A stretch of 64,000 bases of DNA from Rhodoferax sp. (GTDB lineage Bacteria; Pseudomonadota; Gammaproteobacteria; Burkholderiales; Burkholderiaceae_C), in contig NZ_JAAFHA010000001.1 in the NCBI RefSeq assembly GCF_010365055.1, positions 1 to 64,000 on the forward strand, written 5' to 3'. The translations under genes and the position numbers were made by a program. This document shows positions 36,131 to 50,517 of the stretch, piece after piece (position 1 is the first letter of the stretch; the number at the start of each line of letters is the position of its first letter). The notes beneath the pieces were generated by a model that was given only the letters and a program-made list of their open reading frames with translations, was not told the DNA's origin and searched no databases.

Positions 36131-36190
36131 AACAGGACAGTCATCGGGCCTGCTACATTGACACCCTACCCGGTCACGGAAAATTCCCGC

Positions 36191-37033
36191 ATGAGCCCTG
36201 AACTCTCTTTAAAACTGGCCGCTGCTGTCGACGGCATGCCCGCGTTTCCCAAAAGCGTGCAGAAAATCCTGGAGCTCACGCGCGACGTCAACTGCTCACC
36301 CAAGGATCTGGTGCAAGTCATTGACAAAGACCCGGTGGTCACGGTCAAAGTGCTGCGCGTGGTCAACTCGGCTTACTACAGCCTGCCCAAGCAGATCACC
36401 TCGATCAACCATGCGGTGGTTTACCTGGGCTTTAACACCATCAAAAACCTGGCCTTGAGCATCGCGGCCATCGGCATGTTGCCCGCCAGCAATGCGGCCG
36501 GTTTCGACGGCGCGCAGTACCTGATTCACTCGCTGTCCACGGCAGCGATTGCCAAGCAACTGGCCTTGCGTCTGGATGACGCCGACCCGATGGACTGCTT
36601 CATTGCCGGCCTGCTGCACGATTTTGGCAAGGTGGTGTTCGCGCAGTTCATGCCGAGCGAATTTCGCCAGGCGCTCGAAACCAGCCAATGGAACGAGAGC
36701 TCACTGCACCTGGCGCTGCGGGACGTGATCGGTGCTGATCACGCGGTCGTCGGCGCCATGCTGGTCGAAAAGTGGCGTTTCCCGGCTGAGCTGGTGGAAA
36801 CCATCCGCTGTCAGTTTGGCCCCGAGGTCAAAGACACACCGATGATTGCTTGTGTCTTTGCCGCCAACCAGATCAGCAAGAGGCTCGAATTTGGCTTTGC
36901 CGGCAACCGCTGCGTCGAACAATTGCCACCCGCTGTTGCGCAAAGGCTGGGTGGCACCTTGGATGAACTGATTGTCTCCTTGGGCGATTTGGCACCCCTG
37001 CTGGAAGAAGCCAAAATATTTTCAAAAGTTTGA
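36191..37033 (+). CDS. HDOD domain signalling protein
   Basis: A 280-residue stand-alone HDOD domain protein. The core begins VDGMPAFPKSVQKILELTRD, then VVTVKVLRVVNSAYYSLPKQITSINHAVVYLGFNTIKNLAL, the HDOD signature. LLHDFGKVVFAQFMP is the HD-like helix. HDOD proteins lack catalysis and act as protein-binding or output modules in signal transduction. ATG 36191 with GGAAAA upstream is preferred; the tracked start is a TTG at 36158. A metal-dependent hydrolase gene follows 9 bp downstream. Confidence 0.9.
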   Translation: MSPELSLKLAAAVDGMPAFPKSVQKILELTRDVNCSPKDLVQVIDKDPVVTVKVLRVVNSAYYSLPKQITSINHAVVYLGFNTIKNLALSIAAIGMLPASNAAGFDGAQYLIHSLSTAAIAKQLALRLDDADPMDCFIAGLLHDFGKVVFAQFMPSEFRQALETSQWNESSLHLALRDVIGADHAVVGAMLVEKWRFPAELVETIRCQFGPEVKDTPMIACVFAANQISKRLEFGFAGNRCVEQLPPAVAQRLGGTLDELIVSLGDLAPLLEEAKIFSKV

Positions 37034-39435: not shown

Positions 39436-40118
39436 TATTTTATATAACAAATAGTCCGAATGATCTCGATCAATATTCAGCAAAGGTGTTGACTCAGTGC
39501 GAATGCCGCTCCGAATCTGGTGCGAACACGCCCAGTCGAACTTGGCAAATGCGCTATTCTTGCGCTGTCCGAAATCGTTGAAGCCGCATCAACCCCGATG
39601 GAACAAAGCCATCGCCAAGCGAACCTGTATGAACTTGAATCTCTTTCAACCGCGCTCGCTCGTTGGCATCGGCCAACGTGGAGCAACGCACGGCTTGACG
39701 CAATCCCATACTGCAGAGTCTGGTGGCGTTGGCGCCCCGTGTGGCCTCGATGTCGCGCAAGAACTCGCGCCAAGTGAGTTGCGCATAGGCCATGACGCGT
39801 GCAAAACTGGTCCGGGGCACAAACGCCATCAACTGGGTAAAAAGCGTCTTGCCAAGATTCATGAGCAATCCCAAAAATTGTCAATTAGTTTCGACTTGGT
39901 AGATGGCTGATGGTTTTAGCTGGACGGAGTAAGGCGGCTATGACTTCATCTGGCTGCACCCACTGCAACCCGCCAGTAGGAACAAGTCATGCTGACAGCT
40001 ACATTCCCCCTGTGTACGAGCCTTGCTGCGGCCTTTTGCCATCCCTTCGACCGCATTCAGAACATGGCTTGGATGCCTGCCTCGTCGCCGGCGAACGACC
40101 TGAATTGGGGCGCTCAAT
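39436..40118. other. Gene-poor interval with an IS4 remnant
   Basis: About 680 bp between nnr's repeat and the signalling operon contains no intact gene. The only recognisable content is the transposase fragment at 39655-39862. ORFs on either strand in the rest show no family likeness. The operon promoter probably lies in 39863-40118, but I see no convincing -35/-10 pair. Confidence 0.6.
39655..39862 (-). pseudogene. IS4-family transposase N-terminal remnant
   Basis: Begins MNLGKTLFTQLMAFVPRTSF, then AYAQLTWREFLRDIEATRG and RQAVRCSTLADANE, typical of the DUF4372-type N-terminus of IS4-like transposases. Full-length relatives have a segment between SFARV and MAYAQLT that is missing here, and after STLADANE the frame continues into unrelated residues. 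It is an internally deleted and truncated fossil with no catalytic DDE core. No terminal inverted repeats were recognised. Confidence 0.7.
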
Positions 40119-43100
40119 ATGAAAAGCTTGACCCTGTTTTTGAAGACCCCTACGAGGGTGGTCATCGCGGTCGGTTTGATCATACTGGTGGTGGAACTTT
40201 TGATCATGCTGCTGATCTCAGCCGTCACAGAGGGATCGTCTCTGAACGCATGGCATTTCGTCGATCCCATCCTGCTCACCGCGCTCGTTTCCCCCGCCCT
40301 CTATATCCTGATCTTCAGGCCGATGCGCAACCAGCAAGTCGAACTCGAACGGCAACTCGTCGAGTGGCGCCGCAATGAGCAACTGACTGCATTAATTGGA
40401 GCCATCCCTGATTCAGTTTTCCTAAAGGATGGCGAAGGGCGCTGGCTGGTAACGAATGAACCCGCCAAACAGCTTTTCCACTTGCACGACATTCCCTGGC
40501 AGGGTAAAAGCGACATGGAATTGGCGGATCTGCATCCGGCATTGCGCGCCGTGCACGAGGGATGCCTGGCGAGCGATGAGAAGGCCTGGCAGGCAGGCAA
40601 GCTGCTGGTAGGCGAAGAAATCGTGGCAGGGGAAGATGGTCGACGCGCGATCATAGAGATGCGCAAGGTACCGCTGTTCGGCAACGAGGGGCAGCGCAAG
40701 GGATTGGCAATCATCGGGCGCGACATCACCGCGCGCAAGCAGGCAGAGCAGACGCTCAGAGTAAGCGAAGAGCGCTTCAAAACCATGTTTGTGCAGGCGC
40801 CTTTGGGCATTGCCTTGATCGATTCGCTTGCAGGACATATCTACGAAGTCAATCCGCGCTTCGCTGAGATTGCCGGAAGGTCAATGGAAGAGTTGGCGGA
40901 TATTGATTGGTTACAAATCACACACCCCGATGATGTGCAGGCAGACCTGGAAAATATGGCTCTGTTGAATGCCGGAAAGATAAACCGATTCCAGATGGAA
41001 AAACGCTATCTTCACCCGGATGCCACGGTCGTTTGGATCAACATGACGATTGCAGCCTTGAAAGTCGGCGATAAGGCTCGCCCACACCATCTCTGCATGA
41101 TTCAAGACATCACCGAGCGCAAGCAGACCGAAGCCTTGCTCAAAGAGCAACAAACGCAGATCAAACTCGCCGCTCAGGTATTCGCGCAGGGCCGCGAAGG
41201 CATCACGATTTCCGATGCGCGGGGCAATATCGTCTTGGCAAACAAGTCCTTTGCCGCAATCAGCGGCTACACCGAGGCTGAGCTGCTCGGCAAGAACTCG
41301 CGCACCTTGTCTTCCACACGGCACAGCCCGGGGTTCTACCGTGCCATGTGGGATAGCATCAACACCAAAGACTACTGGGCCGGCGAAATATGGGATCGCC
41401 GCAAAGATGGCACTGAATACCCCGCGTGGCTGGCGATCTCCACCATGCGCGACGAGCAAGGGCAGATCACGCATTACCTCGGCAGCTTCAGTGACCTGAG
41501 CGATGCCAAGGTCGCAGAAAACCGCATCCAGTGGCTGTCTTATTTCGACGCCCTCACCGGCCTGCCCAACCGCGTTCTGCTGAAGGACCGTACCACGCAC
41601 TCCATCAATGTGGTGCAGCGCGCCAGCGCGCCCCTGACCATGATGTTGGTGGGTATTGACCACTTCAAGAGAGTCACCGACACCCTGGGACACCACATCG
41701 GCGACGAGCTGCTGGTGGAAGTAGCCAAACGGCTCGGTAACTCGGTACGCGCCCAGGACACCGTGGCCCGCTTGGGTGGAAATGAGTTTGTTCTGGTGCT
41801 ACCGGACACGCCAGCGGCAGGCGCCGCACACCTAGCCACCGAACTGCTGTGGACAATGGCCCAGCCCTACCAACTGGGAGGCCACGAGCTAACCCTGACC
41901 GCCTCCATCGGCATCGCCAGGTACCCCGACAACGGAAGCGACTTCGACGCGCTGCTCAAGGCCGTGGAACTTGCCCTGCACCGCGCCCAAGCCAATGGGC
42001 GCGACACCTTTGAGTTCTACAGCGACGACATGTACCAGCAGCTGCTCGCCCGCGATCACATGACCAAGGCCTTGCGCCATGCCGCCGCGCTCGACCAACT
42101 GCAACTGCTCTATCAGCCACTGGTAGACCTGCAGACCGGACAGATCAGCGGCCTGGAGGCGCTGCTGCGCTGGCACCACCCCGAGTTGGGTTCGGTCTCG
42201 CCTGTCCAGTTCATTCCACTGGCCGAGGAATCGGGCTTGATCAAGGGCATTGGCGAGTGGGTTTTACGGCGCGCCTGTAGCGACATTCGCGCTTGGCTGG
42301 ACAAGGGCATCAAGGTCCCGCCCGTAGCGGTCAACGTCTCGCCCCTGCAGTTTCGTGATCCCGATTTGATTGCCCAGGTGAAAAGTGCCATGTCCGAGTC
42401 GCAGGTCGATCCCCTGCTTATTTACCTCGAAGTGACCGAGGGTGCGCTGATGGATGATGTTCCTCGCAGCGAGGCCACGCTCAGGGAATTCAAGAGCTTG
42501 GGCGTGAAACTCTCGCTGGACGATTTTGGCACGGGTTACTCATCACTGAGCTACCTCAAGCGCTTCCCCTTTGACAAGGTCAAGATCGACCAGTCTTTTG
42601 TGCGCGACATCACCACCAACCAAAGCGACGCAGTGATCGCGAAGGTGATCATCTCCATGGCCCATGGTCTGGGCTTGAAGGTCATTGCCGAGGGCGTGGA
42701 AACCGAAGCCCAGTGCGAGATGCTGCGCACCCATGTCTGTGACGAAATTCAGGGTTATTTCTTCTCCAAGCCGATTTCCACCCAGGCTATCGAAGAGCTT
42801 TTCGCTGAAGGCCGACAATTACCGCCCCATCTGCTGCGCCTGCAAAAGCCGCAACGCACACTGCTGCTGGTGGACGACGAGCCCAACATCCTGGCCTCGC
42901 TCAAGCGCCTGTTCAGGCGCGATGGCCATGTCATTCTGACCGCCAACAGTGGCGCGCAGGGGCTGGAGTTGTTGTCCAAACAAAAGGTTGATCTGATCAT
43001 CTCGGACCAGCGCATGCCGGGCATGACCGGGGTGGAGTTCTTGCGCGCCGCCAAAGCGCTGTACCCTGACACGATTCGCATCGTGCTGTCAGGCTACACC

Positions 43101-43655
43101 GAGTTGCAGTCGGTGACGGATGCCATCAATGAAGGCGCCGTCTACCGCTTTTTGACCAAGCCGTGGGAGGATGAGCCGCTGCGCGAGCACATCAACAAGG
43201 CCTTTGAATACAAGGAGTTGCTGGAGGAAAACCGCCAGCTCGACATCAAGATTCGCACCACCAACCAGGAGTTGATTGCTGCCAATCGGCAACTCGGCGA
43301 CATCCTGCAAAACAAGCGCCACCAGATTGAACGCGACGAAACCAGCCTGGCGATTGCGCGTGAGGCCTTGCAGCACATGCCGCTGCCAGTGATTGGGGTG
43401 GACGACGAAGGCTTGATTGCATTTGTAAATGTTGCCGCCGAGCACCGGTTCGCAGACGCTGGCGCGTTGCTCGGCGTTGAACTTGCGCAAGCACTACCCA
43501 CCGTTGATGCAGCCATCGCCGCTACCGCTGAAGGCATGCCCTGCGAGCTGCTGATTGACGACACCCGCTACCTGGTCAAGTGGAACCCCATGGGCCTCCG
43601 CTCGCGCTCCAGGGGCAAAATAGTCACCTTGATTCATACCGGGCCTGTTGCATGA
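40119..43655 (+). CDS. PAS-GGDEF(degenerate)-EAL-REC sensory protein
   Basis: A 1178-residue hub protein. Two TM helices (about 12-37 and 47-67), three PAS domains (about 85-205, 215-335, 345-465), GGDEF (about 470-640), EAL (about 650-890), a receiver (about 912-1025), a coiled coil and a C-terminal PAS-like segment (about 1085-1178). The cyclase motif is RLGGNEF, with Asn for the metal-binding acid, so cyclase activity is doubtful. The I-site RAQD is kept. EAL residues look intact (LEALLRW, DDFGTGYSS, KVKIDQSF, EGVETEA). The REC phospho-Asp is in IISDQRMPG, followed by TKPWE. Its stop overlaps the next small ORF (ATGA). A C-terminal REC on a GGDEF-EAL protein is unusual. Confidence 0.93.
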   Translation: MKSLTLFLKTPTRVVIAVGLIILVVELLIMLLISAVTEGSSLNAWHFVDPILLTALVSPALYILIFRPMRNQQVELERQLVEWRRNEQLTALIGAIPDSVFLKDGEGRWLVTNEPAKQLFHLHDIPWQGKSDMELADLHPALRAVHEGCLASDEKAWQAGKLLVGEEIVAGEDGRRAIIEMRKVPLFGNEGQRKGLAIIGRDITARKQAEQTLRVSEERFKTMFVQAPLGIALIDSLAGHIYEVNPRFAEIAGRSMEELADIDWLQITHPDDVQADLENMALLNAGKINRFQMEKRYLHPDATVVWINMTIAALKVGDKARPHHLCMIQDITERKQTEALLKEQQTQIKLAAQVFAQGREGITISDARGNIVLANKSFAAISGYTEAELLGKNSRTLSSTRHSPGFYRAMWDSINTKDYWAGEIWDRRKDGTEYPAWLAISTMRDEQGQITHYLGSFSDLSDAKVAENRIQWLSYFDALTGLPNRVLLKDRTTHSINVVQRASAPLTMMLVGIDHFKRVTDTLGHHIGDELLVEVAKRLGNSVRAQDTVARLGGNEFVLVLPDTPAAGAAHLATELLWTMAQPYQLGGHELTLTASIGIARYPDNGSDFDALLKAVELALHRAQANGRDTFEFYSDDMYQQLLARDHMTKALRHAAALDQLQLLYQPLVDLQTGQISGLEALLRWHHPELGSVSPVQFIPLAEESGLIKGIGEWVLRRACSDIRAWLDKGIKVPPVAVNVSPLQFRDPDLIAQVKSAMSESQVDPLLIYLEVTEGALMDDVPRSEATLREFKSLGVKLSLDDFGTGYSSLSYLKRFPFDKVKIDQSFVRDITTNQSDAVIAKVIISMAHGLGLKVIAEGVETEAQCEMLRTHVCDEIQGYFFSKPISTQAIEELFAEGRQLPPHLLRLQKPQRTLLLVDDEPNILASLKRLFRRDGHVILTANSGAQGLELLSKQKVDLIISDQRMPGMTGVEFLRAAKALYPDTIRIVLSGYTELQSVTDAINEGAVYRFLTKPWEDEPLREHINKAFEYKELLEENRQLDIKIRTTNQELIAANRQLGDILQNKRHQIERDETSLAIAREALQHMPLPVIGVDDEGLIAFVNVAAEHRFADAGALLGVELAQALPTVDAAIAATAEGMPCELLIDDTRYLVKWNPMGLRSRSRGKIVTLIHTGPVA

Positions 43656-43771
43656 GCGATTTGCAGCGACAAGACCGGTTGAAACGATTATTTCGGCTGG
43701 CTGGCAACAACGCAGAGGGGCGCTACCTGCTTGCGCTCATGGCGCGCTACCGGGGGGTTGCCTTGCCATGA
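43652..43771 (+). CDS. 39-residue translationally coupled small protein
   Basis: A small ORF starting MSDLQRQDRLKRLFRLAGNN and ending YRGVALP. Its ATG overlaps the stop of the 1178-residue protein (ATGA at 43652), and its own stop overlaps the ATG of the HDOD gene (ATGA at 43768). Two back-to-back 4-bp overlaps in a co-directional operon argue for translation. The peptide is basic and amphipathic at the N-terminus, with no TM helix or signal. I do not recognise the family. It may be a small regulator or merely serve coupling. Confidence 0.6.
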   Translation: MSDLQRQDRLKRLFRLAGNNAEGRYLLALMARYRGVALP

Positions 43772-44610
43772 ACCACATCGTGATGGACGACGTGCTGGGA
43801 AGAATCCACAACCTGCCATCGCTGCCGGTGGTGGTGATGGAGTTGTTGGCGAGCATGGGCCAGGACGACGCCAACATTGAGGCGCTGGCGGAAAAGATCG
43901 CAATGGATCAGGCGTTGACTGCCAAAATATTGCGCCTTGCGAATTCATCCTTTTATGGCATGACGCGCCAGGTCACCACCATCCAGGAGGCCATTGCCAT
44001 GCTGGGTTTCAGAACGGTACGCAGCCTGGCCACCACCTCCGCCCTGATTGGCAACTTCTCCGCCAACCCGGGCAACAGCTTCAATTTCGCCCCGTTCTGG
44101 CGTCACGCCATTGCGGTTGCCGTGTGCGCCCGGGAACTGGCTCCCCATCTCAATCTCAACCCGGACCAGGCCTACACCGCAGGCCTGCTGCACGACATTG
44201 GACGCTTGGTGTTGGTAACGCAGTTTCAACCGCAGTACCAGGCCACCATGAGGTACCGGGCTGAGCATGATTGCCATCTGCTGGATGCCGAACACGCCGT
44301 ACTGGGCCTTGACCACGCGCAGGTGGGCCACGCGCTGACGCAACACTGGAAATTCCCGCTGACCATGCAACAAGCGCTGGCCGAGCACCATGCGCCCAGC
44401 AGCCTTGGCATGCAAGCCCTCTCGCTGGTGGTGATGGCCGCTGACGCCATTGCCCATGCGCTGGACTTGTCGATGGACGCCGACGATCTGGTTGCACCTG
44501 TGCCGCTGGGTCTGTGGGAACAATTGGGTCTGGATGAAGCGACCCTGCTGCAGGTGTTTGCAAGCGTCGAGCAACAATTCAACGCCACCAGTCTGCTTTT
44601 AAACGGCTGA
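43768..44610 (+). CDS. HDOD domain signalling protein
   Basis: A 280-residue HDOD protein, the same length as the one at 36191. The domain opens GRIHNLPSLPVVVMELLASM, then ALTAKILRLANSSFYGMTRQVTTIQEAIAMLGFRTVRSLA. The HD-like helix is AGLLHDIGRLVLVTQ, which retains an HD pair, followed by LAEHHAPSS. ATG 43768 is chosen because of the ATGA overlap with the small ORF; the tracked start 43648 is out of phase with the coupling pattern. It probably serves as an output or scaffold partner for the operon's REC and kinase proteins. Confidence 0.9.
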   Translation: MNHIVMDDVLGRIHNLPSLPVVVMELLASMGQDDANIEALAEKIAMDQALTAKILRLANSSFYGMTRQVTTIQEAIAMLGFRTVRSLATTSALIGNFSANPGNSFNFAPFWRHAIAVAVCARELAPHLNLNPDQAYTAGLLHDIGRLVLVTQFQPQYQATMRYRAEHDCHLLDAEHAVLGLDHAQVGHALTQHWKFPLTMQQALAEHHAPSSLGMQALSLVVMAADAIAHALDLSMDADDLVAPVPLGLWEQLGLDEATLLQVFASVEQQFNATSLLLNG

Positions 44611-44622
44611 GGACTCAAGCTG

Positions 44623-46092
44623 ATGAATAGTCCAATCCCAGCAAATGCGACGGCAGCAAAAGGCCTTGCCGACGTCGATCAAGCCATTTTTTTTAATGCC
44701 AGTCCGGTCCCGACCTTCGTGATCGACTCGAACCATGTAGTCACCCATTTCAATCACGCCTGCGCCATGACCCTGGGGGTCACCGCGGACCAAGTGGTAG
44801 GACGCAAAGGCATTGGTCGTGTTTTTCATGGGCATGACCGGCCCATGATGGCCGACCTGATCGTCGATGGCGTCATGCAAAAGGCCGTCGACGATCTGTA
44901 CCAGAGTACCTATCGCGGTTCACTGGCAGTCGTCGATGCCTACGAGGCCGAGGCCTTTTTTTCCAGCTTGAGCAGCACCGGGCGATGGTTGTTCTTCACC
45001 GCGGCGCCGATTCGAAACCAGCAGGGCGAACTGGTGGGCGCAATTGAAACCTTGCAAGACATTACCGAGCGAAAAGTGGCGGAAGCCGCGTTGATGAAGG
45101 CGCAGCTCGAAGTCGAACAGATGGTCGAGCAGCGCACCGCGCAGTTGGCGCAGGTTAATCGCACCCTGCGCGATGATGTCAAACGTCGCGAAACTGCAGA
45201 ACGCGGACTGCTGGACCGCAATGACGAACTCAACGCCCTCAATGTCAAGTTGTCAGCCGTCAAGGAACATCTGATTCAATCTGAAAAGCTGGCCTCCATT
45301 GGCCAACTGGCCGCTGGTATTGCGCGTGAAATCAATAACCCGATTGGCTACATTTTTTCCAACTTTGGCACGCTGGAGAACTACCTGACACAACTGTTCG
45401 CCATGCTGGACGCTTATGAAAAAGCAGAAGCTTCATGCCACACACCACAAACCCTGCAAGAGCTTCAGGCCAAGCGCGAAGAAATTGAACTGGCGTTTCT
45501 GAAAGAAGATATTCCGGTATTAATGCAGGAGTCCAAAGAAGGCATCGTGCGGGTGCGAAAAATCGTGCAGGACCTGAAAGATTTTTCGCACGTGGACAGC
45601 AACCCCGATTGGCAATTTTCCGACATGAACCAGGGTATTGACTCAACGCTCAATGTGATCAATAACGAGATCAAGTACAAGGCCGATTTGGTCAAAGACT
45701 ATGCCGACCTGCCCGAGGTGCAATGCATGCCCTCGCAGATCAACCAGGTGGTAATGAATCTGGTGCTTAATGCGGCGCAAGCCATGGGCACTGAGCGCGG
45801 CAAGATCACAGTGCGCACCGGTGTGGCCGATGACAAGGTCTGGCTGGAGGTGATTGATGACGGCAGTGGCATCCAGAAGGATGTTTTGCCGCGCATCTTT
45901 GACCCGTTCTACACCACCAAACCGGTCGGCAAAGGCACCGGCCTGGGGTTATCGTTGTCATATGGCGTTGTGCAAAAACATCATGGCAGCATCGAAGTTC
46001 AAACTGAAATGGGCAAAGGCAGCACCATTCGCGTCACGCTACCACTCAAGCAGCCCGCCACGCCAGCAGCCAATGGAGCCAACGCAACATGA
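44623..46092 (+). CDS. PAS histidine kinase lacking the phosphoacceptor His
   Basis: 489 residues, no TM helix, so cytoplasmic. PAS (about 20-150), a coiled coil (about 150-220), a dimerisation helix pair and HATPase_c (about 350-475). The H-box reads LAAGIAREINNPIGY; the paralogue at 48856 has LAAGVAHEINNPVGF. Arg235 (CGT at 45325-45327) replaces the His (CAT needs one base change). The ATP-binding boxes appear intact: NLVLNAAQA, DDGSGI and GTGLGLSLS. It therefore cannot autophosphorylate at the usual site and may be a scaffold, decoy or regulatory partner. Its stop overlaps the next gene (ATGA). Confidence 0.9.
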   Translation: MNSPIPANATAAKGLADVDQAIFFNASPVPTFVIDSNHVVTHFNHACAMTLGVTADQVVGRKGIGRVFHGHDRPMMADLIVDGVMQKAVDDLYQSTYRGSLAVVDAYEAEAFFSSLSSTGRWLFFTAAPIRNQQGELVGAIETLQDITERKVAEAALMKAQLEVEQMVEQRTAQLAQVNRTLRDDVKRRETAERGLLDRNDELNALNVKLSAVKEHLIQSEKLASIGQLAAGIAREINNPIGYIFSNFGTLENYLTQLFAMLDAYEKAEASCHTPQTLQELQAKREEIELAFLKEDIPVLMQESKEGIVRVRKIVQDLKDFSHVDSNPDWQFSDMNQGIDSTLNVINNEIKYKADLVKDYADLPEVQCMPSQINQVVMNLVLNAAQAMGTERGKITVRTGVADDKVWLEVIDDGSGIQKDVLPRIFDPFYTTKPVGKGTGLGLSLSYGVVQKHHGSIEVQTEMGKGSTIRVTLPLKQPATPAANGANAT

Positions 46093-47438
46093 CGGACAAC
46101 AGCACCACGGCACCCGGCGCCCGTGCAGCGCTGCTGCCCACAATTTTGTGCGTCGACGATGAGCCCAACATTCTGTCGGCGCTCAAACGGCTGTTTCGTG
46201 GCAAAGGATGGCAGGTATTGTCCGCCGAAGGGGGCCAGGCCGCCCTGGCGCTGCTGGAGACGCAGACCGTTGACCTGGTCATCTCTGACATGCGCATGCC
46301 AGAGATGGATGGTGCCCAATTTTTGGCACGGGTGCGCGTACGCTGGCCCGACACGGTACGCCTGCTGCTGACTGGTCATTCCGACATCGACGCCATCATC
46401 GAGGCCATCAATCGGGGTGAGATTTACCGCTACATCACCAAACCGTGGGACGACAACGACATCGTACTGATCGTGCGCCAGGCGCTGGAACGTCAAGCAC
46501 TGGAGCACGAGAAGAAGCGCCTGGAAGCGCTGACCACCCGCCAGAACGAAGAACTCAAGACCATCAACGCGAGCCTGGAAGCCAAGGTTGAAGCGCGCAC
46601 CACTGAACTCAGGGTCGCCAACGAGTCACTGCAAAGCGCCAATGAAAGACTGAAAAGCAGTTTCGTCACGTCGATCAAAGTGTTCTCCACCTTGATGGAA
46701 ATGCGTGGCGGTAACCTGGCCGGGCACTCGCGTCGGGTGGCTGATCTGGCGCGGCGCATGGCCACCAAACTCCAACTCGATGGCAAGCTGGTGCAAGACA
46801 TTTTTGTCGCTGGCTTGCTGCACGAAATTGGAAAAGTGGGGTTTGCCGACGAACTGCTCAACACGCCGGTGGCAATGATGAAACCAGAACAGTTGGACGC
46901 CTACCGCAAGCACACGGTGCAAGCCGAGCAGTTGCTGCTGCCGCTGACCGAATTGCGCGCTGCCTCCGACATCATCACAGCACAGTTTGAACGCTTTGAT
47001 GGCACCGGCTTCCCGACCCGGCTCGTCGGGCCAAACATACCCATTGGAACCCGGATTTTGTCGCTGGCCAGTGACTACGACAACATGCAAATCGGCACGC
47101 TGACGCACAGCCGTCTGAAACCGGAAGAAGCCAAAATTCTGATTGTCCGTAGCAGCGGGCAGCGCTATGACCCGGAGGTGGTGAGCGCCTTCCTGGAAGT
47201 GCTCAGTGGCGTGTCACGGCAAGCCGCTGGCAAGGAAAACTTTGCTGAAATGATGGTCAAAGCGTGTAACCTGAAAGCAGGCATGGTGCTGGCACGCGAT
47301 CTCATCGCACCGAGCGGCTTGTTGATGTTGTCGGCAGAGCATGTGTTCGATCAACGCATGATCGGCAAGATCATCACTTTTGAAAAGTCAGGCGGCATGG
47401 AACTGACCGCCTACATTCGCGTGGACAGAGCATCCTGA
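46089..47438 (+). CDS. Response regulator with degenerate HD-GYP domain
   Basis: 449 residues: REC (about 17-130) with CVDDEPN, phospho-Asp in ISDMRMPEMDG and TKPWDD, a coiled coil (about 135-195) and an HD-GYP domain (about 195-385). The HD motif is LLHEIGKVG (Glu for Asp). The HHExxDGxGYP motif reads AQFERFDGTGFP, losing both His and the Tyr of GYP. Hydrolysis of cyclic-di-GMP is therefore unlikely, though binding may persist. The REC is closely similar to that of the 40119 protein (VDDEPNIL, KRLFR). Coupled to the degenerate kinase upstream. Confidence 0.92.
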   Translation: MTDNSTTAPGARAALLPTILCVDDEPNILSALKRLFRGKGWQVLSAEGGQAALALLETQTVDLVISDMRMPEMDGAQFLARVRVRWPDTVRLLLTGHSDIDAIIEAINRGEIYRYITKPWDDNDIVLIVRQALERQALEHEKKRLEALTTRQNEELKTINASLEAKVEARTTELRVANESLQSANERLKSSFVTSIKVFSTLMEMRGGNLAGHSRRVADLARRMATKLQLDGKLVQDIFVAGLLHEIGKVGFADELLNTPVAMMKPEQLDAYRKHTVQAEQLLLPLTELRAASDIITAQFERFDGTGFPTRLVGPNIPIGTRILSLASDYDNMQIGTLTHSRLKPEEAKILIVRSSGQRYDPEVVSAFLEVLSGVSRQAAGKENFAEMMVKACNLKAGMVLARDLIAPSGLLMLSAEHVFDQRMIGKIITFEKSGGMELTAYIRVDRAS

Positions 47439-47546
47439 GCAGGAATTTTCTGAATGAACATCCGGTACACAAACAAGCGTCAGATTTTTGGACCAGCCCG
47501 TCAATGCCTGGTTTTTACCCGTGGCTTGGGTTGTGACAAAGCGATC

Positions 47547-47551
47547 AGGAG
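47547..47551 (+). promoter_or_regulatory. Shine-Dalgarno fixing the TTG start of the HD-GYP gene
   Basis: AGGAG, then CCTGGT (6 nt), then TTG 47558. Confidence 0.75.
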
Positions 47552-47557
47552 CCTGGT

Positions 47558-48859
47558 TTGAACGCCACGGCCAACCGCAATATCTCCGTGGACCAGCTTC
47601 GCGTGGGGCTGTACGTCCATCTCGACTTGAAGTGGTTTGAGCATCCGTTCGCGTTTAGCCATTTCAAGATCAAGTCCGAAGAACAAATCACGCTGATCCG
47701 CAGCCTGGGTCTGAAAACGGTGCGCTTTAGCTCGGAGCTGAGCGAGGGCAGTGCCCCTGCCCAGATGGTCGAGCCGCTCGCGCCCGACCTCAACGCCCCT
47801 GCGCTAACCCCCGCCAGCACTGCGCCAGAGCTATCCCCGATCATGCTGGCCAAGCGGGCCATGATGGCGCAGATGCGGCTGCGAAGGCAGGACACCGAGC
47901 GCATAGAAAAAGCTTTCATCGACACGGCCAGGACCATTCGCGACATCGAGAAGAACCTGTACAGCCGACCGCTTGAGGCCGCGCAGCAGGCCACCTTGCT
48001 CATCGGTCAGATGACCGATTCGATCCTCAGTGCTCCTGAACTCGCGATTCAGGTCATGGGCGACAAGTTGGGGGGCGACGAGCTGTACCTGCATTCGCTC
48101 AACGTCACCATGCTGTCGATCATGATGGCGCGCGATATCAAACTGCCGGTGGCGGTCGTGGGCGTGCTCGGCGTCGGGGCGCTGCTGCATGATATTGGGC
48201 GCAAAGAAGTGCCTGACAAGATTCTGCGAAAAACCGAAGCGCTGACGCAAGCCGAGCGTAGTTTCTATGAAATGCACTGCCAGTTTGGCGTGGAGATGGG
48301 TCAGCGCATGGGTCTGGCACCGGCGGCGCTGGCGACCATCCGGGAGCATCACGAGTTGTTTGACGGCGCCGGCTATCCGGCCAAACTCAAAGGCGAATCG
48401 ACCAGCTTGCTGTCGCGCATTGTGGTCATTGCCAATTACTACGATGAGTTGTGCAACCCGTCGGCCATCGCCGACGCGCTGACGCCGCATGAAGCACTGT
48501 CCCTCATGTTTGCCAAATTACGCAGCAAGTTCGACCCCAAGCTGCTGCAGGTTTTCATTCGCTGTCTGGGTGTGTATCCGCCAGGTACGATCGTGCAGCT
48601 GTCCAACGGCGCCATTGGCATGGTGGTAACCGTGAACACGGCACGCCCCATGAAGCCCACGCTGATGGTGTATGACGCCGAGGTAGCCAAGGATGACGCG
48701 ATTTTGCTTGACATGGAGCGTGAGACCGAGGTCAACATTGCGAAAGCCATCCGGCCGGCCCAAGTGCCGCAAGAGGTGTACAACTACTTGAGCCCGCGCA
48801 AACGGGTCAGCTACTACTTTGATGCATCGTCCACACGGCCACAGGCGGGCACGCCATGA
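47558..48859 (+). CDS. DUF3391 and HD-GYP cyclic-di-GMP phosphodiesterase
   Basis: 433 residues. The N-terminal DUF3391 region opens ISVDQLRVGLYVHLDLKW. The HD-GYP domain (about 165-355) is canonical, with ALLHDIGRKEVPDKIL and REHHELFDGAGYPAKLKG, the metal-ligand motifs all present. It should hydrolyse cyclic-di-GMP to pGpG or GMP. The start is TTG with AGGAG six bases upstream. It ends with an ATGA overlap into the second kinase. It sits beside a degraded HD-GYP paralogue, so the operon holds one active and one probably inactive copy. Confidence 0.95.
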   Translation: MNATANRNISVDQLRVGLYVHLDLKWFEHPFAFSHFKIKSEEQITLIRSLGLKTVRFSSELSEGSAPAQMVEPLAPDLNAPALTPASTAPELSPIMLAKRAMMAQMRLRRQDTERIEKAFIDTARTIRDIEKNLYSRPLEAAQQATLLIGQMTDSILSAPELAIQVMGDKLGGDELYLHSLNVTMLSIMMARDIKLPVAVVGVLGVGALLHDIGRKEVPDKILRKTEALTQAERSFYEMHCQFGVEMGQRMGLAPAALATIREHHELFDGAGYPAKLKGESTSLLSRIVVIANYYDELCNPSAIADALTPHEALSLMFAKLRSKFDPKLLQVFIRCLGVYPPGTIVQLSNGAIGMVVTVNTARPMKPTLMVYDAEVAKDDAILLDMERETEVNIAKAIRPAQVPQEVYNYLSPRKRVSYYFDASSTRPQAGTP

Positions 48860-50517
48860 ATTCGCTGGCCAGACTGATGCTTGACAACAGCCCCGAGATG
48901 GCGCTTTTGGTCAACCCGGTCACACTGCAGATCATGATGGCCAACGCGTCGGTGGTCAAGACACTGAACTACTCGCTGGCACAGTTGCAGGGCTTGGCGA
49001 TCACCGAGGTCGAGAGTGCGCTACAGGATGTGTTTTATTGGGAAGATGTTCGAGCTGGCCAGTATCTTGAAGTACAGAGTCAGGAGGGGCTGTATCGCCG
49101 CGCGGATGGCGAGCTGCTTCCGGTCAGCAAGTCAATTCGGCTGCTCAACTATCAGGGGGCACCCCTGTTGCTGGTGCAGGCCGTGCAGACAAGAGATGAG
49201 CGCAAGGCGCAGGACGCGCTGGCGCACACCTTGTCGCAGTTGCGTGCCACGCTGGAGTCCACCGGCAATGGCATCCTGGTCATTGGCTGGCAGGGACAGA
49301 TCGAGAGCATGAACCGGCTGTTTGGCAGGATGTGGGAGGTTTCTGACGATCTGCTCGACTCGCATGACGATGCGCGCATTCTCGGTTTTGTGGCCGGGCG
49401 TGTGATCGAGTCCGAGTTGCTTCACACCCGATTGAGTGCAATCGTGGACCAGCGTGAGACCGAAGACCTGCTGCACCACCAGGACGGTCGCGTGTTCGAG
49501 GTCAGCTCGCGTCCACAGTACCTGGGTGAGCAGATCATAGGGCGCGTGTTTGGTTTTCAGGACATCACCCAGCGCACGCTGGCCGAAGCCGCCTTGCGTG
49601 AATCGCGCGACCTGCTGGAACAAAGAGTGCAATCCCGAACAGCCGACTTGAATACCGTCAATGAGACGCTGCAGCAAGAAAAGGAGCGCCAGGCCATTTT
49701 GATCAAGCGACTGGAAGAGGCGCAAAACCAGCTGCTGCAATCGGAGCGCATGGCGTCTATCGGTCAACTGGCGGCCGGGGTAGCGCATGAAATCAACAAT
49801 CCGGTGGGCTTTGTCAACTCCAATCTGGGCTCCTTACAGCGCTATGTCACCGACATGCTCAGGCTGCTGTCGGTCTACGAGAAGGCCGAGGGAGCCCTCC
49901 CTGGGGCAGCAATGCAAGAGATAAGCCAGGTAAAAGCGGACATTGATGCCGAGTTCCTGCGCGAAGACGTGGCCAACTTGCTCGTCGAATCGCTGGACGG
50001 GCTCAAGCGCGTCACGCGCATCGTGCAGGACTTGAAAGATTTTTCTCATGTGGATGAATCGGAGCGCCAGTGGGCCGACCTGGAGGCCGGGCTGGAGAGC
50101 ACCTTGCGCGTGGTCTGGAATGAGCTCAAGTACAAGGCCGAGGTGATCAAGGAGTTTGCAGGTATTCCGCAAGTCGAATGCTTTGCTTTTCAGCTTAACC
50201 AGGTGTTCATGAACCTGTTGATCAACGCCTCGCACGCCATTGAAGGGCGTGGCACCATTGCCGTCCGCACCGGGCACGACGACGCCTGTGTGTGGGTGGA
50301 AGTGCAAGACAGCGGCCGCGGCATCAAGCCGGAGCATCTGTCCCGGATTTTTGAGCCGTTTTTCACGACCAAACCGGTCGGCCAAGGCACCGGGCTGGGG
50401 CTTTCACTGGCTTACGGTATTGTCAAAAAACACGACGGACGCATTGAAGTCAAGAGCGAATTGGGACTGGGGACGGTGTTCCGGGTGATCCTGCCAAAGA
50501 AAACTAGAATACTATAA
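48856..50517 (+). CDS. PAS histidine kinase (intact H-box)
   Basis: 553 residues, soluble. Two PAS-like segments (about 5-120 and 125-255), a coiled coil, then a HisKA-like H-box LAAGVAHEINNPVGF with His311 present and HATPase_c with NLLINASHA, DSGRGI and GTGLGLSLA. It is a close paralogue of the kinase at 44623 (shared RIVQDLKDFSHVD, and so on), but with the His kept, so it is probably the active kinase for the REC domains in the operon. The final residues RIL and stop (ATA CTA TAA) come from a dispersed repeat. Confidence 0.94.
   Translation: MNSLARLMLDNSPEMALLVNPVTLQIMMANASVVKTLNYSLAQLQGLAITEVESALQDVFYWEDVRAGQYLEVQSQEGLYRRADGELLPVSKSIRLLNYQGAPLLLVQAVQTRDERKAQDALAHTLSQLRATLESTGNGILVIGWQGQIESMNRLFGRMWEVSDDLLDSHDDARILGFVAGRVIESELLHTRLSAIVDQRETEDLLHHQDGRVFEVSSRPQYLGEQIIGRVFGFQDITQRTLAEAALRESRDLLEQRVQSRTADLNTVNETLQQEKERQAILIKRLEEAQNQLLQSERMASIGQLAAGVAHEINNPVGFVNSNLGSLQRYVTDMLRLLSVYEKAEGALPGAAMQEISQVKADIDAEFLREDVANLLVESLDGLKRVTRIVQDLKDFSHVDESERQWADLEAGLESTLRVVWNELKYKAEVIKEFAGIPQVECFAFQLNQVFMNLLINASHAIEGRGTIAVRTGHDDACVWVEVQDSGRGIKPEHLSRIFEPFFTTKPVGQGTGLGLSLAYGIVKKHDGRIEVKSELGLGTVFRVILPKKTRIL

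Follow-up and report, generated by a model that had tools for sequence, protein, structure and literature searches.

A NosR-type two-component gene cluster for cyclic-di-GMP in Rhodoferax, with a cognate kinase that is probably being exchanged

Here, I describe a cluster of signalling genes in a stretch of Rhodoferax DNA (64,000 nucleotides, hereafter the window) which, with rather better than even confidence, is a NosR-type two-component hub for cyclic-di-GMP whose cognate kinase is in the course of being exchanged. In sequence, an old module comprising the genes for an EAL-REC protein, a small ORF, an HDOD protein, the histidine kinase K1 and a NosR-family response regulator is followed by a second module that has been added to it, DUF3391-HD-GYP and the kinase K2 (Table 1). 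The pathway has apparently been caught midway through this exchange, and apparently in two lineages: the old kinase seems to have been disabled or deleted, and a related one installed beside the same response regulators.

The seven ORFs at 40119-50517 are co-oriented, with ATGA overlaps at 43652, 43768, 46089 and 48856, and the domain assignments of the original prediction were borne out by Pfam and NCBIfam profiles. The HDOD gene begins at 43768, the mechanical ORF that starts at 43648 being too long. The 39-codon ORF corresponds to the end part of a small protein, which has 110 residues in genomes G338 and G329 and is shorter (about 70) in G316. A further ORF of 35 codons, absent from the earlier gene list, fills most of the gap between the NosR and DUF3391-HD-GYP genes; it is also found in Rhodoferax ferrireducens, with seven synonymous and three non-synonymous codon changes, mostly in third positions, and its being a real gene is suggestive only. 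Promoter or terminator matches that could divide the cluster occurred at chance level only, with none in the gap at 47438-47558. About 3 kb upstream of the cluster, a second HDOD gene lies in a different gene neighbourhood (36158-37033 of the window); an upstream ORF (39477-39884), considered as a transposase remnant, has no Pfam match.

Table 1. Positions in the window of the genes, candidate ORF and altered codon of the cluster
Feature	Position	Strand	Basis or remark
PAS(x3)-GGNEF-EAL-REC protein	40119..43655	+	Profile matches, motif alignment; C-terminal REC of NosR type
39-codon ORF, shortened version of a conserved small protein ahead of HDOD	43652..43771	+	
HDOD protein	43768..44610	+	PF08668, 213.7 bits
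K1, PAS histidine kinase without phospho-acceptor His (R235), remaining boxes conserved	44623..46092	+	
CGT codon (Arg) of K1, CAT/CAC (His) in homologues	45325..45327	+	
NosR-family response regulator, REC and catalytically dead HD-GYP	46089..47438	+	NF053512, 575.6 bits
Candidate 35-codon ORF, overlapping the following TTG start	47454..47561	+	Suggestive only
DUF3391-HD-GYP protein, Asp to Asn (N293), HDxxK to HDxxR	47558..48859	+	
K2, PAS histidine kinase, H-box intact	48856..50517	+	

The absence of the phospho-acceptor histidine from K1, already noted in the original prediction, is confirmed. The change to arginine takes one base, a transition from CAT to CGT. Histidine is kept in 65 of 66 homologous kinases, arginine being present only in the K1 of the window. 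In the sister species, R. ferrireducens T118 (genome G303, recognised by its replicon of 257,447 bases, which over 5 kb matches plasmid NC_007901.1 at 100% identity), K1 is a short relic with two internal deletions, at the joints of which short repeats are found. In genome G311 no K1 separates K2 from NosR, though this genome is incomplete. K1 thus appears to be losing its function in this Rhodoferax. Apart from R235, unusual residues are not in excess in it (1 column of 262, the mean over 46 kinases being 0.41), so that the change may be very recent, or a sequencing error, or else K1 may still be under selection.

That the arginine codon comes from faulty sequencing or assembly, or from a mutation of this one strain, is an unlikely explanation but one to be kept in mind. 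It would leave the strain with two working kinases, the state seen in G348 and G307, where both are intact within one cluster, and it agrees with a single transition in a kinase otherwise fully conserved and with a draft genome of 188 contigs; yet the sister genome is independent evidence that K1 can be dispensed with. I also consider it improbable that K1 is a working pseudokinase, retained in a phosphatase or scaffold role in which it would dephosphorylate the receivers or form mixed dimers with K2. The boxes for ATP binding are intact in it, as is E..N of the phosphatase motif, only one otherwise invariant column being changed, and phosphatase activity has been inferred as the main function of NosK in Burkholderia pseudomallei (PMC12570481); against this, R235 is unique among the 66 homologues and the gene is mostly deleted in the sister species. 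For the same two reasons, the near universality of the histidine and the deletion in T118, the suggestion that the histidine-less kinase evolved as a scaffold is not supported. An elaborated version, in which K1 is kept as a phosphatase only or as a scaffold and, on the receivers that both serve, opposes a kinase captured recently, the whole being arranged around the EAL phosphodiesterase and three catalytically defective cyclic-di-GMP domains (GGNEF, the HD-GYP of NosR and DUF3391-HD-GYP), is quite improbable.

The favoured reading, exchange of the kinase, draws on the likeness of the two receivers. The C-terminal receiver of the EAL-REC protein matches positions 1-172 of NF053512 with 204.9 bits, and the REC-HD-GYP protein matches positions 1-422 of this NosR family model well above its curated cut-off of 400 bits. 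The two receivers share 64 identical positions in an alignment of 151 columns. The first-helix region of a receiver governs its kinase specificity, and there the stretches DDEPNIL and LKRLF are identical between the two. The phospho-acceptor aspartate is retained by the NosR receiver in the alignment. In the EAL-REC gene, the part for the N-terminal sensory region (40119-41145) has no DNA-level alignment with its T118 counterpart, whose product of 1355 aa has a different N-terminus, while the remainder aligns; the input domain has been swapped.

As to the output domains, the first gene has, as had been noted, a degenerate GGDEF motif (GGNEF), and all close orthologues have GG[N/K/R]EF or worse, so that this degeneration is fixed across the genus. 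Likewise, the HD-GYP domain of NosR is degenerate in the manner first described (HE for HD and QF for HH), and its ligands read N-H-H-E-K-H-Q-F in nearly all copies of the cluster in the genus; a dead domain that is fixed and conserved fits the proposed non-catalytic role, regulatory rather than catalytic. The damage in the cluster is therefore of two kinds, fixed in these two domains and recent in the histidine of K1.

The other HD-GYP protein had been taken as intact. It does carry the HD, HH and GYP letters, but R215 replaces the Lys of HDxxK (giving HDxxR) and N293 the metal/acid-base Asp. N293 is placed by an alignment to solved HD-GYP structures that has no gaps from the HHE motif up to and including this residue. 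Asn is common to 23 of 23 close relatives (the subfamily members found). Asp occupies the site in all 30 of the more distant DUF3391-HD-GYP proteins sampled from the order, among them another one of this genome (L124), and 23 of the 30 have the full HD...K...HH...D set. DUF3391 is also the N-terminal domain of PA4108. With PA4108-type phosphodiesterases the protein shares its domain order and the HD, HH and GYP letters, whereas its subfamily differs in the two residues given above; both are described as catalytic and both are present in PA4108, and Bd1817, with Asn at the same site, has no detectable activity (PMC3774798). Lowering of cyclic-di-GMP by this HD-GYP, as first proposed, does not agree with the loss of Asp and Lys, and the protein probably binds cyclic-di-GMP rather than hydrolysing it fast. 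For this reason the EAL domain, with its complete set of EAL, Asn, Glu, DD, Lys, Glu and Gln in the motif alignment, is, as judged from its motifs, the sole cyclic-di-GMP domain of the cluster that is fully equipped for catalysis.

The distribution of the genes among relatives speaks for two modules. The core of EAL-REC, small ORF, HDOD, kinase and NosR recurs, whole or in part, across Betaproteobacteria; linkage of its four larger genes, again whole or partial, was seen in Rhodoferax, Undibacterium, Massilia, Duganella, Pseudoduganella and further genera, and a Propionivibrio MAG has part of the core, with no NosR seen. In G323, G316 and G028 the pair DUF3391-HD-GYP and K2 is separate from the NosR core, and in G062 the two are divergent. 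In G348, G307 and G311 the inserted pair parts EAL-REC from the kinase and/or NosR genes farther downstream, in G312 it lies directly 3' of EAL-REC with no NosR nearby, and in the window and T118 it is downstream of NosR. Directly ahead of the pair in G323, G316, G304 and G028 is a gene which I take to be uppP; T118 has a single K2-type match, about 157 kb from uppP. In a K2 tree of 17 rows, several forks of which are open, the window and T118 group with G323, G316 and G309 (96/96), the copies of G323 and G316 being stand-alone, and G307, G312, G348 and G311 form a separate group (100/100). This suggests that the NosR cluster acquired the DUF3391-HD-GYP/K2 module on two or more occasions; ancestral linkage followed by several separations is the alternative, two joins being the simplest reading.

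A check of linkage in relatives, asked for at the outset, thus had a divided outcome: the NosR core recurs in whole or in part, and the order of seven genes as a unit does not, since in most relatives the two modules lie apart or in another arrangement. It is very doubtful that the seven products form a single conserved complex in which the HD-GYP is active and the degenerate partners act as sensors. Co-orientation and the four ATGA overlaps are in its favour; the separate or differently ordered modules and the HD-GYP without catalytic Asp and Lys oppose it. What stands of the idea of paired intact and damaged parts is that two-component and cyclic-di-GMP genes are linked here and provide two receivers, a complete EAL domain and, in K2, a kinase that appears competent; what falls is the single conserved unit and the active HD-GYP.

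In the exchange that I favour, K1 is being displaced, and K2 would sense through its PAS region, autophosphorylate and phosphorylate both of the similar receivers, those of the EAL-REC protein and of NosR. Phosphorylation of the receivers would set the phosphodiesterase activity of the EAL domain, the part that would lower cyclic-di-GMP, NosR with its dead HD-GYP fold would bind and modulate the EAL protein as HnoD does with HnoB (PMC6335343), and HDOD and the small ORF may be assembly parts. R. ferrireducens T118, this strain and G338/G316 offer natural pairs for studying how specificity survives the replacement of a kinase, and with this cluster the question whether HD-GYP proteins that are catalytically dead regulate EAL enzymes can be put to a clear test.

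Membership of the NosR family raises the question of nitric oxide. No NosP-type FIST protein was found in the cluster or elsewhere in this genome, and no HNOB match (H-NOX) either. Signalling of NO as in NosRPK, with a sensor encoded elsewhere, has little to commend it: the family of NosR and the strong, NosP-type FIST genes inside the same cluster in G142 and G001 point that way, but the sole FIST gene of this genome is of the weak type (74.8 bits, versus about 150-185 for the strong type) and lies on another contig (C6), and there is no H-NOX in this genome. T118 likewise has only a weak-type FIST gene, outside the cluster, and no H-NOX. Of the kinases adjoining NosR, K1 is without and K2 with the phospho-acceptor histidine. 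In G329, the entire NosR cluster (L110, G329:C1:326000-345900) is fragmented, as if decaying, and the genome has an H-NOX gene instead.

The original prediction recognised no described relative; close precedents do exist in NosR/NosK and HnoB/HnoD (PMC12570481, PMC6335343), and the Rhodoferax cluster is probably a relative of the NosR system that controls cyclic-di-GMP. EmbRS of Rubrivivax is unrelated, and a literature search for NosP combined with HDOD found nothing. In B. pseudomallei, NosR, with REC and an altered HD-GYP (HG-GTP), is encoded beside the kinase NosK, which phosphorylates it, and the NO sensor NosP (PMC12570481). Common to both is a NosR-family REC protein with a dead HD-GYP, its gene accompanied by one for a soluble histidine kinase; the Rhodoferax cluster differs in having no NosP, in its extra EAL-REC, HDOD, DUF3391-HD-GYP and second kinase, and in its histidine-less K1. 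HnoK/HnoB/HnoD of Shewanella oneidensis likewise combines an EAL phosphodiesterase regulator with a degenerate HD-GYP regulator, sharing of the kinase being expected, and there HnoD, the dead HD-GYP protein, binds HnoB and inhibits it (PMC6335343). The Rhodoferax system differs in that its EAL protein has additional PAS and GGDEF domains and a C-terminal REC and in the lack of an H-NOX match, and a counterpart here of the direct binding of HnoD to HnoB is putative.
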